From Bacteroidia bacterium (GTDB lineage Bacteria; Bacteroidota; Bacteroidia; UKL13-3), in contig JAIOYZ010000003.1 in NCBI GenBank assembly GCA_021740845.1, positions 1 through 64,000 of the forward strand: DNA of 64,000 bases. Reading direction: 5' to 3'. The translations under genes were made by a program, and so were the position numbers. The notes beneath the pieces are model-generated. The model was not told the DNA's origin and made no database searches. It saw nothing but the letters and a program-made list of their open reading frames with translations. Below are positions 45,061 through 50,090 of the stretch, piece after piece (position 1 is the stretch's first letter; each line of letters begins with the position of its first letter).

Positions 45061-48000
45061 TTATTTAAGAGTTCTCTTCACTTCAACTTCTTCGTATGCT
45101 TCCACGTAATCACTTTCTCTTAAGTCGTTGTAGTTATGAATAGTTAAACCGCAATCAAATCCGTAGGCAACTTCTTTCACGTCGTCTTTGAAACGTTTCA
45201 ATGATGATAGTGATCCTGAGAATACAACTACACCATCACGTATCAAGCGGATTTTGGCATTTCTAACCAATTTACCATCGGTAACCATACAACCTGCAAC
45301 GGTACCAACTTTTGTAATTTTAAACACCTCACGTATTTGAGCATTACCCAAGATTTTCTCTTCAATGGTTGGAGCCAACATACCTTCAATAGCAGATTTG
45401 ATTTCTTCAATTGCATTGTAGATAACCGAGTACATGCGGATATCGATAGATTCTGTTTCAGCTAATCTTCTAGCTTGCGGACTAGGTCTTACTTGGAAAC
45501 CAACGATAATTGCATCTGAAGCAGATGCCAACATTACGTCACTTTCAGATATTTGTCCTACTGCTTTATATATAACACTCAATTGAACTTCTGGAGTAGA
45601 AAGCTTAATTAATGAATCTGCCAATGCTTCTACCGAACCATCCACGTCGCCTTTAACAATAACTTTTAATTCTTTAAAGTTTCCAATTGCCAAACGTCTT
45701 CCAATTTCATCCAAGGTAATATGTTTGTTAGTTCTAATACCTTGTTCGCGCTGTAATTGTTGGCGTTTATTTGCAATTTCTTTTGCTTCTTGCTCATTCT
45801 TGGTTACCAAGAAACGATCACCCGCTTGTGGTGCACCATCAAATCCTAGAATTACAACCGGAGTACTTGGTCCTGCTTTTAGCATTTTCTTTCCTCTTTC
45901 GTCGAACATCGCTCTAACTTTACCATTATTGGTTCCTGCTAATAATGGATCGCCCACTTGAAGAGTTCCACTTTGAACCATAACTGTGGTAACAATACCA
46001 CGACCTTTATCCAAGGTCGCCTCAATAATATTACCAACAGCACGTTTATTAGGATTTGCTTTTAAGTCTAGCATTTCTGCTTCTAATAATACCTTGTCTA
46101 ATAAAGATTCAATGCCAAGTCCTTTTTTAGCAGATATTTCCTGACATTGGTATTTACCACCCCATTCTTCAACTAAAATATCCATAGCAGCCAATTGTTC
46201 CCTAATTCTATCAGGGTTAGCAGCATCTCTATCAATTTTATTTAATGCAAAAACAATAGGTACACCAGCAGCTTGTGCGTGGCTAATTGCCTCTTTAGTT
46301 TGAGGCATTACGCTATCATCAGCAGCAATTACAATAATTACTATATCCGTTAATTTGGCACCACGAGCACGCATGGCAGTAAACGCTTCGTGACCAGGTG
46401 TATCCAAGAAGGTAATTTTCTTGCCGTTTTCTAATTTTACCTCGTAAGCTCCAATATGCTGGGTAATACCACCCGCTTCACCTTTTACTACATTTGCACT
46501 ACGTACATAATCGAGTAAGGATGTTTTACCATGATCTACGTGACCCATTACCGTTACAATTGGTGCACGAGGCTCTAATGTATCTGGATCATCCAATTCT
46601 TCTTCTACGGCTTCCACCATTTCAGCGGAAACAAATTCAACTTCAAAACCAAATTCTTCTGCAACAATGGCAATTGTTTCAGCATCTAATCTTTGGTTAA
46701 TGGAAACCATCATACCCAAGCTCATACAAGCCGAAATAATTTGGGTAATTTGAAGATCCATCATTTGTGCAAGTTCATTGGCGGTTACAAACTCAGTTAC
46801 CTTCAGTTTGTTTTTCTCCATTTCCTCCTGCAACATCGCCTCTTCACGCTCATTCGCTTTTACATCGCGCTTTTGCTTACGAATTTTGGATCGAACCGAA
46901 CCAATATTTGGATTTTTACTACCAGGATTTAAGCGAGCTAAAGTTGCCTTTAACTTATCTTGTATTTCCTTATCGCTAATTTCAGTTTTTTCTTCTGGCT
47001 TACCAAAACGGTTACCACCTGGGCCACCTGGACCTTTGTTTCCAAAACGATTTCCGCCACCTTGTTGGTTATTTCCTGGACCACGATTATTGTTGTTATT
47101 TCCTTGATAAGGAGGTCTAGGACGGTTAGGGTCGTTTGGTCTATTTTGATTTTGACCTTGTGGGTTGTTATTATTATTATTGTTTCCAGACTGATTGGCA
47201 CCTCCAATTTGTTTGCGCTTGCGTTTGCGTTTGCCATTTGGATCATCGCTACTTGCAACTGGACTTTGTTTTTTAGCAGGTGGATCTTGTTTAAGGACAA
47301 TTTTGCCCATCACTTTTAGTCCTTCTAGCTTCTCATATTTAACATCAGAAACTTTGGTTTCTTCTGGTTCAATTTTGGCGGCTGGAACTTCTACTGCCGG
47401 AGTAATTGTTGGCTCAATTGTTTTTTCCTCAACAACTGGTTTTGCTTCTGGTTGAGGTTTTTCAACAATAACAGGTTCTTGCTTTTCTACAACTATTGGT
47501 TCAGGTTTTGGAGTTTCAACAACAATTGTTTTCTCCTCAACTTTTGGTTCAACCTTAATTGGCTCTTCTGCTTTTTTAACTTTAGATTTTGGTTTCTTAA
47601 GAGAATCCAAGTCTATTTTCCCCATTACCTTAAGGCCAGAAGTTTCTTCTTTTTCAATTTTCTCTTCTACCTTAGGAGCAGGAGGTTCTGGTATTACTAA
47701 AGGTTCTACAACCTTCTCTTCAATTTTTTCAACCGGCTTTTCAACTGTTTTTTCAACAGGAACTTCAATTGGAGCTGGCGCTTCAACTTCGGGAGTTGGA
47801 ATAATCTCTTGTTTTTTGGATGGGGAATTTACCAATCCTGATTTGATAAGCATTCCATCTTCCTCCACCTCATCTTCTACAACAGGAGCTTTAGGTTTCG
47901 GGATTTCAATTACCGAATCTTTCGGTTTCATGCGGTCACGACCTAATTTGTGCGCTTCGTCTTTAATTTTTTTCTCCGAGTTATACTCTGATAGAAGGAT

Positions 48001-48147
48001 ACTGTATTGGTCTTCAGTAAGTTTTGTTGTAGGTTTGGCCTCAACGGCATGACCTTTTTTTGCCAAAAAGTCAACCAGTGTGGTCATCCCCACATTCAGT
48101 TCCTTTACTACGGCATTTAATCTCTTTGTTCCTGTTGTTTCGCTCAT
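45061..48147 (-). CDS. infB: Translation initiation factor IF-2
   Basis: 1028 residues. An N-terminal IF2_N-like segment (~1-65) is followed by a long low-complexity region (~85-370): first Lys/Glu/Pro/Val repeats, then Asn/Gly/Gln/Pro-rich. This makes the protein longer than E. coli IF-2. The G domain from about residue 525 has [20 protein letters not shown] and NKID; domains II-IV follow to the end. It brings fMet-tRNA to the ribosome with GTP. It is the last gene of rimP-nusA-infB. The long N-terminus is typical of Bacteroidota, by recollection. Confidence 0.97.
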
Positions 48148-48334
48148 TCTGCGCTTTTCTTCCTAAAAATTAGTGCGAATATCGTCTTTATTCATGGATA
48201 TTCAACATGAAGGCCCGAAAACAGAATAATAAAGCATAAGCAAGCTTCGTTACCGAGTTTTTCGGGCCTTAGAAACGACCACCAATATGAGGATTAAGCT
48301 CACATGGCTTGCTTATCTTACTAGGAGCATCATC
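48148..48334 (-). ncRNA. Structured nusA-infB spacer, candidate cis-regulatory RNA
   Basis: The 187-nt spacer holds a perfect 12-bp inverted repeat (48210-48221 with 48259-48270, arm aaggcccgaaaa). It also holds a perfect 10-bp one (48236-48245 with 48307-48316, arm ataagcaagc) that interleaves with the first. A 7-bp hairpin gaatatc / gatattc lies at 48177-48203. Interleaving means a pseudoknot or two alternative folds. It lies inside an operon and lacks a U-run, so it is not an ordinary terminator. No ORF of note lies in it. Confidence 0.55.
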
Positions 48335-49570
48335 TTATTCGAATTCTGCTTCTAAGATTCTGCGCACTTCTTGCACAGTTTCTTCTTCCAATTCGGTTCT
48401 GCGCACCAACTCCTCATTGGAAATTGCTAAAACACTTTTTGCAGTGTCTAAACCAAGTCCCTTTAATTCGTCAATAATCCAGCTATCTATTTCATCTGTA
48501 AATTCATCCAAATCAATATCCTCTTCTTCACTTTCTGCTTCTCTATAAACATCGATTTCGTACCCAGCCAATTTACCAGCTAGTTTAATATTATGTCCAC
48601 CTTTACCAATTGCCAAAGAAACTTGATCAGGTTTCAAGAAAACTGAAACACGTTTTTTATCTTCATCAATTTTAATTGACGAAACCTTTGCAGGACTCAA
48701 AGAACGTTGAACTAATAGGCTTGGATTTCCAGTGTAATTAATAACGTCGATATTTTCATTTCTCAACTCACGAACGATACCATGAATACGAGAGCCTTTC
48801 ATACCCACGCAAGCTCCAACTGGATCAATACGATCATCATAGCTTTCTACAGCTACTTTTGCTCTTTCACCTGGTTCGCGAACAATTTTCTTGATGCTAA
48901 TTAAACCATCAATAATTTCAGGAACTTCTTGTTCAAATAATCTTTCCAAGAAAGCTGGGGCTGTTCTGCTCAAAATAATTCTTGGATTACCATTGTGCAT
49001 TTCAACCTTAAATACAACTGCACGAATGTTGTCACCTTTTTTGTAGAAATCTGCAGGAATCATTTCAGTTTTTGGAAGCAACAATTCATTGCCTTCATCA
49101 TCCAAAATCATGATTTCTTTTTTCCAGATTTGGTAAACCTCACCAGAAACAATTTCACCCACACGGTCTTTGTATTTCTTGTAGAACTCGTCTTTTTCTA
49201 ATTCAAGAACTTTAGATAATAGAGTCTGACGAGCAGAAAGAACTGCTCTTCTTCCGAATATTTGTAATCCTACTTCTTGTGTTACATCTTCACCAATTTC
49301 AAAATCGGGTTCAATTTTAATAGCATCTGAATACGCAATTTGTGTATTTTCATCTTCTACTTCACCATCGTGAACGATGTTACGGTTATGCCAAATTTCC
49401 AAATCCCCGCTCTTATCATTGATAATTACGTCAAAGTTTTCATCGCTGTTGTAGCGCTTGCGTAACATGCCACGAAACACGTCTTCCAACACTCGCTGCA
49501 TGGTTGCGCGATCGATGTTTTTAAACTCCTTAAACTCACTGAAGGAGTCAATTAATCCTGCACTGTGCAT
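48335..49570 (-). CDS. nusA: Transcription termination/antitermination factor NusA
   Basis: 411 residues. N-terminal RNA-polymerase-binding domain (~1-125), an S1 domain (~130-200, GEIVSGEVYQIWKKE), and two KH domains with EPGERAKVAVES and DPVGACVGMKGSRI near residue 240 and LAIGKGGHNIKLA near 320. An acidic tail with one AR2-like helix pair (~345-411) follows. It modulates pausing and termination. It is 20 nt after rimP, in the classical order. Confidence 0.95.
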   Translation of the reverse strand: MHSAGLIDSFSEFKEFKNIDRATMQRVLEDVFRGMLRKRYNSDENFDVIINDKSGDLEIWHNRNIVHDGEVEDENTQIAYSDAIKIEPDFEIGEDVTQEVGLQIFGRRAVLSARQTLLSKVLELEKDEFYKKYKDRVGEIVSGEVYQIWKKEIMILDDEGNELLLPKTEMIPADFYKKGDNIRAVVFKVEMHNGNPRIILSRTAPAFLERLFEQEVPEIIDGLISIKKIVREPGERAKVAVESYDDRIDPVGACVGMKGSRIHGIVRELRNENIDVINYTGNPSLLVQRSLSPAKVSSIKIDEDKKRVSVFLKPDQVSLAIGKGGHNIKLAGKLAGYEIDVYREAESEEEDIDLDEFTDEIDSWIIDELKGLGLDTAKSVLAISNEELVRRTELEEETVQEVRRILEAEFE

Positions 49571-49590: not shown

Positions 49591-50055
49591 TTAATTAAAA
49601 GACACTTGAACAAAAGCTTCTTCAATGTCTTCGAATACAATTTCTTTAATAATTGGCTCCTTTGCTAAGTATGCCTTTTTCTTATCTTTTAAATGTAGCT
49701 TCATAGAAGTTTCATTTAATTCAATAAGTTTTCCTAACAATTCGGTTTTTGCCTTTAGTAATACTTTTAACTCTCTACCAATATGTTTGGCATATTGTCT
49801 TGTTAATTTCAAAGGTCTATCTACTCCTGGCGACGATACTTCCAATAAATATGGAGTTTCGCCAAAATCCGATTCATCCAATTTTGAGGATAAATGTCGG
49901 TTCAAACTCCTACATTGTTCAATTGTCAATGGTCCATCACTATCAATTAATATCAATAGCTTAGATCCTCCCGGCTTAAACTCAATATCTACCACAAAAA
50001 CTGAAGGTTCTAAAACCTCAGCACTCCATTCTTTTATCTGTTCTACGATTTGCAT
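49591..50055 (-). CDS. rimP: Ribosome maturation factor RimP
   Basis: 154 residues from MQIVEQIKEWSAEV at 50055; the frame reaches a TTG three codons earlier. The family core VFVVDIEFKPGGSKLLILIDS, the CRSLNRHLSSKLDE stretch and LLEVSSPGVDRPLK near residue 75 are clear, with an Sm-like C-terminal half. It is needed for 30S subunit assembly. It is first gene of the operon, with a promoter and a terminator-like hairpin just upstream. Confidence 0.95.
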   Translation of the reverse strand: MQIVEQIKEWSAEVLEPSVFVVDIEFKPGGSKLLILIDSDGPLTIEQCRSLNRHLSSKLDESDFGETPYLLEVSSPGVDRPLKLTRQYAKHIGRELKVLLKAKTELLGKLIELNETSMKLHLKDKKKAYLAKEPIIKEIVFEDIEEAFVQVSFN

Positions 50056-50062
50056 AGGTAAC

Positions 50063-50090
50063 AAAAAAGGAGACTTTTGGTCTCCTTTTT
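50063..50090 (-). terminator. Terminator or attenuator in the rimP leader
   Basis: Perfect 11-pair stem (50064-50074 with 50080-50090, GGAGAC core) with a 5-nt loop. On the minus strand it ends in six U, just 8 nt before the rimP ATG. It can end the upstream 449-residue gene. It also lies downstream of the predicted rimP promoter, so it could attenuate the operon. Confidence 0.8.

Follow-up and report, generated by a model that had tools for sequence, protein, structure and literature searches.

The spacer between nusA and infB in this Bacteroidia genome holds an element whose firm part is a conserved nested hairpin (S1), accompanied by a second helix (S2) that draws on some of the same bases. 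Our preferred explanation, to which we assign a probability of roughly 0.4, is that a leaky attenuator or 3'-end element peculiar to this lineage limits how much transcription passes from nusA into infB; that S1 functions alone is nearly as probable. If the preferred explanation is true, an intercistronic attenuator with two competing folds would govern the NusA : IF-2 ratio and, to our knowledge, RNA regulation of core translation genes has been little studied in Bacteroidota. If only S1 is functional, the element would be an ordinary 3'-end hairpin. Either way, a conserved box belonging to infB itself suggests that nusA and infB expression are separately adjustable.

Locus and inverted repeats

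The window, i.e. the whole 64-kb stretch of DNA analysed here, includes the following genes, the first two of which are named nusA and infB from the proteins that they encode:

48335-49570, minus strand: nusA, from its ORF translation (homologues in 63 of 64 family genomes)
45061-48147, minus strand: infB (IF-2), from its ORF translation
49591-50064: ORF that is presumably rimP, judged by position
48148-48334: nusA-infB spacer, 187 nt, between minus-strand genes

A sequence-only reading had described a 12-bp and a 10-bp perfect inverted repeat interleaved in this 187-nt spacer, and a repeat search of the spacer recovered both. S1 joins 48259-48270 with 48210-48221 and S2 joins 48307-48316 with 48236-48245, so placed that the minus strand reads S2-left, S1-left, S2-right and S1-right. 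When the spacer was shuffled 5000 times with its dinucleotides preserved, 9 of the products contained a repeat of 12 bp or longer, 112 one of 10 bp or longer, and none an interleaved pair in which both repeats reached 10 bp. A survey of 1358 overlapping 187-nt segments, taken every 47 nt across the 64 kb, found 20 with a repeat of 12 bp or more and one with an interleaved pair, the nusA-infB spacer itself. Interleaved repeats of this size are not expected by chance. The whole spacer folds at -49.6 kcal/mol (z -2.18), with 3 of 200 shuffles equally stable. At gathering score, Rfam had no matches across the whole window and none at six of the other 12 loci with the S1 hairpin, and a relaxed search of the spacer returned just two eukaryotic snoRNA families, far under their cut-offs.

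For comparison we used 64 genomes of the family, the same 64 being obtained by an order-level search. They include the genus of this genome (g1) and its sister genus (g3). NusA was found in 18 of the 19 g1 genomes; in G003, which is 84% complete, neither nusA nor the infB N-terminus was matched. The 18 g1 spacers (L009-L026) were read, that of L012, which had no infB match, up to an end placed at ATGAGCGAA.

The S1 hairpin and its conservation

48210-48270, minus strand: whole S1 hairpin, consisting of the outer 12-bp stem, an inner helix and an 8-nt apical loop UUGCUUAU (48236-48243)

The 12-bp repeat is the base of a longer nested hairpin of about 62 nt, which folds alone at -27.0 kcal/mol in this genome. 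Folded singly, all 13 elements found (nine in g1 and four in g3) form one hairpin of 61-64 nt with 21-26 pairs, G-U included, on a conserved outer stem GGCCUG/CAGGCC that reads GGCCCG/CGGGCC in this genome. In 12 of the 13, all but L027, the hairpin folds more stably as the sense than as the antisense sequence, and there are more G-U pairs on the sense strand. The inner segment is more stable than its mononucleotide shuffles (p < 0.05) in 11 of 12 sequences; L019 fails at p 0.083, and L018 was omitted from this and the arm-swap test as a near-duplicate. Aligned over 17 pairs and nine rows, 96.1% of cells are paired, a count that is weak on its own since 52 of 500 column shuffles match it, and the outer stem includes one clean exchange, C-G in this genome and U-A in the other eight rows.

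RNAalifold on a 13-row MAFFT alignment found only the outer nine S1 pairs because the inner arms are offset between the clades, and for that reason an arm-swap test was used in its place, with the inner arms taken as S1 minus the outer eight bases of each side. The inner arms prefer the partner of their own clade when the clades are far apart: that of L027 scored -9.9 with its own partner and between -1.7 and -3.8 with right arms from g1, that of L028 -10.7 with its own and between -2.6 and -4.7 with those from g1. Swaps within g1 often equal or beat the own pair, as in L019 (own -7.9; with the right arm of L010 -16.1). By these comparisons the inner arms have changed together between clades, which is compensatory support for S1.

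A covariance model (R1) built from eight rows matches nine of the 19 g1 genomes at E <= 5.1e-13, in every case at the nusA-infB locus. In those nine genomes, on both strands, this place gives the only matches at E <= 0.01; in the genome studied here, matches elsewhere all have E >= 2.9, i.e. S1 is single-copy. A REP- or MITE-like mobile repeat, for which many copies would be expected, was rejected on this count of one. For g3 the matches are weak (two of four genomes at E 0.09-0.11; all four spacers at E 0.006-0.098) and no proof by themselves, as the nusA hairpin of L037, from genus g8, also matches at E 0.042. The g3 hairpins are assigned to S1 by their identical outer stem and their place.

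Distribution among relatives

The element is present in half of the g1 spacers (L009-L013, L018, L019, L021 and L023) and absent from the other nine (L014-L017, L020, L022 and L024-L026), which are 79-102 nt long except for the 149-nt spacer of L022. The S1 hairpin is found in all four g3 members (L027-L030). A 23-row nusA tree is most simply explained if the element was already present in the ancestor shared by g1 and g3 and was lost about three times, in L014-L017 with L020, in L022 and in L024-L026; the tree is of a single gene, has some weakly supported branches and was rooted on L031 by choice. About three losses within one genus imply that the element is dispensable.

Where the element would be, the spacer of L022 (genome G008) carries another palindrome, GTAGAGACGCGATTAATCGCGTCTGTAC, which to us resembles a widespread repeat. 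Among family spacers lacking the element, 19 of 37 fold at z <= -2 (60 shuffles each), and the hairpins of other genera, e.g. g13, are unrelated to it in sequence. In g13 (L045-L048, L050, L051, L053, L068 and L070) a different hairpin is found, e.g. TGCATAAGC.../...GTTTATGCA in L047, with a canonical TAnnTTTG box before infB and 3' of the hairpin in nine of nine. Two further genera, represented by L042 and L031, have long unrelated spacer hairpins with stems, identified by eye, of GAAGAGTACAA/TTGTACTCTTC and CGCGAGAAA/TTTCTCGTG, respectively. L057 (G052) has GC-rich, repeat-like sequence 3' of nusA that matched no tRNA, tmRNA or Rfam family.

Position relative to the probable infB promoter

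48175-48183, minus strand: GATATTCGC box, conserved upstream of infB and probably a promoter -7 region
48203-48205, minus strand: TTG, 19 nt upstream of the box, a possible -33 element

The sequence-only reading had treated the spacer as a leader. This is doubtful, since a conserved box that belongs to infB lies upstream of that gene and 3' of the element. The motif GATATTYGC occurs in 26 of 48 family nusA-infB spacers, including all nine g1 members without the element. In genus g8 (L032-L038, L040, L043 and L061) the rimP-nusA-infB order is split in ten of ten genomes: the ORF after nusA lies on the opposite strand, and infB is found on another contig with its own box, CGATATTCGC, 40-42 nt before its start. 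The canonical TAnnTTTG, the -7 consensus reported for Bacteroidota in the parts of the literature consulted (PMC7366714, PMC9723704), is absent from all 18 g1 spacers. It occurs within 75 nt of infB in 30 of 62 spacers from more distant Bacteroidia, 13 of the 75 loci L076-L150 having been dropped for want of a suitable start, spacer or IF2-like N-terminus, and mononucleotide shuffles give a mean of 2.2 and a maximum of 7. Given that the box stays with infB even when infB is apart from nusA, and that TAnnTTTG occurs near infB in distant Bacteroidia, the box, which is itself not TAnnTTTG, is by its position most likely the infB promoter. The upstream TTG is at most a candidate part of it, and by eye no TTG stands at the matching distance in L024-L026 or g8. 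A second genomic copy of ACGATATTCGCA, which by the locus layout lies within a fumarate-hydratase-like ORF, was taken as chance.

As the box lies 3' of the element, the element would be at the 3' end of the rimP-nusA transcript. S1 does not have the form of an intrinsic terminator (GC-rich stem, short loop, direct U run), and a standard terminator scan found no terminator-like site within the spacer. The T run directly after S1 has a leading run of 2 and 5 T of 8 in the five g1 rows counted besides L023, where the leading run is 3; the three g3 rows counted have a leading run of 4 and 5-6 T of 8. In all ten g8 genomes, nusA ends in a compact hairpin followed by 7-8 T of 8, with a T run of 6-8, and termination at U tracts is therefore probably in use in the family.

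The S2 helix

48307-48323, minus strand: extended left arm of S2, with its perfect core at 48307-48316
48227-48245, minus strand: extended right arm of S2, with its core at 48236-48245, overlapping the S1 apical loop and part of the inner 3' arm
48225-48233, minus strand: U-rich tract UUUAUUAUU at the 3' end of S2-right
48285-48305, minus strand: P1 hairpin AUGUGAG/CUCAUAU, within the S2 loop
48313-48333, minus strand: predicted mini-ORF (ATG, five codons, TAA), 1 nt past the nusA stop

The extended S2 in this genome has about 17 pairs with bulges, at -16.9 kcal/mol, and 1.1% of shuffled left arms equal it. An imperfect helix of 14-18 pairs and -11.6 to -21.5 kcal/mol is found in eight of the nine g1 elements, L010 having a weak one of 10 pairs and -9.9 kcal/mol. 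Tested against shuffled left arms, p is at most 0.011 in seven of nine elements, 0.07 in L021 and 0.18 in L010, values that are not independent since the nine rows are related. The fitted S2 of L019 and L021 is split, with its outer part paired and the inner part of S2-right joined to another partner further 3'. By eye, S2-left is the most recognisable upstream stretch shared with the divergent L023.

Covariation in relatives had been proposed as a check by the sequence-only reading, and the outcome differs between the helices, S1 having clade-matched arms and the U-A/C-G exchange, S2 not clearly passing. Over nine rows, 86.7% of the cells of the 10-bp core are paired with one both-sided change, and column shuffling gives a score at least as high in 201 of 500 trials, i.e. 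the covariation is not significant. A hand alignment of the extended arms, which gaps L009 where the fitted pairing sets its bulges elsewhere, pairs 122 of 141 cells, versus 43-71 of 114-132 when slid. It includes two clean double changes, both in the single lineage L023. When whole right arms are permuted, p is 0.21 for pairing and 0.17 for double changes; covariation of S2 is therefore not shown. The right arms barely vary, perhaps because they are also part of S1. In none of the four g3 spacers does the apical segment pair upstream better than shuffled sequence (p 0.20-0.84).

After S2-right, 6-7 T of 8 follow in all nine g1 elements, the tract being interrupted in this genome and in L023. 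The S2 loop is about 60 nt, which is long for an intrinsic terminator. Within this loop, P1 forms in the prefix fold of this genome and is weak, as its segment beats shuffles (p < 0.05) in only two of eight sequences. A 21-nt ORF starting 1-2 nt past the nusA stop, with its stop codon within S2-left, is found in eight of the nine g1 elements and was not found in L023 or the four g3 spacers; its residues after the start are not conserved. Three g1 spacers without the element (L014, L015 and L020) also have an ATG a few bases from the nusA stop, there opening ORFs of 17-19 codons, stop included, that end just upstream of the infB box.

Predicted competition between the two folds

Because S2-right supplies both the apical loop of S1 and a portion of its inner 3' arm, the extended S2 and the S1 inner helix are mutually exclusive; the outer 12 bp of S1 could in principle coexist with S2. 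Mutually exclusive helices with a common segment, one mark of a transcription attenuator, are found here.

Folding was compared between the complete element and a prefix, i.e. the RNA ending just past the U-rich tract 3' of S2-right, using equilibrium energies and nested pairs only, with no kinetics and on related rows. In the prefix, the loop bases pair upstream with a mean probability of 0.63-0.99 in eight of nine g1 elements, and the best fold joins S2-right to S2-left in seven (in L021 by the outer part only). The best prefix fold of L019 pairs S2-right with a segment adjoining the nusA stop, not with S2-left, and L010 folds locally, without upstream pairing of the loop. In the complete element, the loop is left with an upstream pairing probability of 0.0 in eight of nine and of 0.07-0.11 in L013, the best full-length fold of which retains S2. 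Shuffling the upstream sequence, and counting pairing with any upstream base, reached the observed pairing in 0 of 300 shuffles for L009 and L013, 1 for L012, 3 for L011, 9 for L021, 11 for L018, 16 for L019, 29 for L023 and 212 for L010. When the bases through S2-left were masked, a constraint standing in for a ribosome, the S1 apical hairpin formed in seven of nine; L019 and L023 folded otherwise.

These calculations predict a sequential switch in most g1 members, with S2 forming first and S1 then displacing it. A two-state switch, one of two possibilities that the sequence-only reading had offered, is in this sense plausible from the folding; the covariation of S2 is not significant.

Interpretation and alternatives

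According to the preferred explanation, the spacer would be the 3' end of the rimP-nusA transcript, where an attenuator-like RNA sets the amount of transcription reaching infB, and infB would probably also be served by its own promoter further 3'. When S2 forms, RNA polymerase may pause or sometimes stop at the U-rich tract. A ribosome finishing nusA or the six-codon ORF could cover S2-left, leaving S2-right to pair with S1-left; transcription would then go on and S1 would close. Once made, S1 might also mark or protect the 3' end of the nusA message. The form in which this is coupled to translation through the six-codon ORF over S2-left, ribosomes from nusA choosing between S2 with its U tract (stop) and S1 (read on) and so tying IF-2 synthesis to the translation state, we regard as unlikely.

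Several observations count against a switch: the non-significant covariation of S2, its weakness in L010, the other upstream partner in the prefix fold of L019, the S2 retained in the full-length fold of L013, the presence of S1 without S2 in g3, the S2 loop of about 60 nt, the interruptions of the tract, the approximately three losses, and the mini-ORF, which lacks conserved residues and is missing in L023. Some of them favour the almost equally probable alternative, in which S1 alone is an ordinary intercistronic hairpin at the rimP-nusA 3' end that would weakly terminate transcription, be a site of RNase III-type processing or stop 3' exonucleases, with infB expressed from its own promoter and S2 being a by-product of an A/U-rich, slowly diverging spacer. 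S1 has 21-26 pairs, the g3 elements have it with no S2-like pairing in four of four, 19 of 37 element-free family spacers also fold at z <= -2, with unrelated hairpins in other genera, and the U-rich tract, since it also pairs within S1, could be accounted for by S1 alone. What S1 alone leaves unexplained is that the S2 arms match better than shuffled left arms in seven of nine related rows, and that S2-left is what the divergent L023 most visibly shares upstream.

A neutral remnant, i.e. an old nusA terminator that has been decaying since infB came to follow nusA and is functionless now, is improbable. The short T run after S1 in g1, compared with the run of 4 in the g3 rows counted, and the repeated losses would suit it, but the inner arms, though different in sequence among g1, L027 and the other g3 members, still match their own partners, and decay would not keep them so.

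More improbable still is a pseudoknot, the other possibility in the sequence-only reading, with both stems forming at once and, in the version considered here, binding NusA, IF-2 or another ligand to regulate infB; the results lend no support to a pseudoknot or to sensing of NusA or IF-2. The apical loop UUGCUUAU can indeed pair with the upstream AUAAGCAA in this genome, as an 8-nt duplex of -7.9 kcal/mol, but in four of nine elements (L011, L018, L019 and L021) shuffled sequences match such loop-only pairing (p > 0.05), and the extended S2 requires bases of the S1 inner helix. The position of the infB box 3' of the element, the lack of an Rfam family match and the loss of the element in about three lineages also speak against it.

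A DNA-level or mobile feature, such as a palindromic repeat or cruciform irrelevant to RNA, is very improbable, for although the L022 spacer has a different palindrome, S1 occurs once in its own genome, its strong matches are confined to this locus in nine of 19 genus genomes, and its sense strand folds better and with more G-U pairs.

Comparison with known systems

We found no description of this element in the portions consulted of the open-access literature on the nusA-infB operon, its terminators or stem-loops. The E. coli operon, as far as described in the sections consulted of PMC6511841, has several promoters, terminators and RNase III sites, among them the internal promoters P3, in rimP, and P4, terminators t1/t2 upstream of rimP and t3 upstream of rbfA. 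The present locus is like it in combining probable internal promoters, possible termination and RNA processing, and those sections describe no hairpin switch between nusA and infB (PMC6511841).

In the Bacteroidota transcriptome, 3' regions arising from partial termination form a class, according to the parts of PMC9723704 consulted. The element resembles such regions in being a 3' end ahead of another probable promoter (PMC9723704, PMC7366714; the main text of neither mentions nusA or infB). Measured against the intrinsic terminators of Bacteroidota, S1 is without the U run, and S2, though it has a U-rich tract, closes a loop of about 60 nt.

The rimP-leader is an Rfam family, and membership in it was rejected, as the window has no gathering-score match and the location is not upstream of rimP. 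It is described, in the part of PMC2965389 consulted, as a terminator-type attenuator upstream of rimP in rimP-nusA-infB operons, with a short conserved GGGc...gCCC stem and a U-stretch (PMC2965389). The present element would share with it the operon, attenuation of the terminator type and a short conserved stem, and differs in lying between nusA and infB, in its GGCCUG/CAGGCC stem and in its alternative helices.

Ribosome-mediated attenuators are leader-peptide systems with a short ORF and alternative pairings. The element is like them in its short ORF over the first arm, four segments, alternative pairings and U-rich tract, and unlike them in its lack of conserved regulatory codons, in its long loop and in the U-rich tract following segment 3 rather than segment 4.
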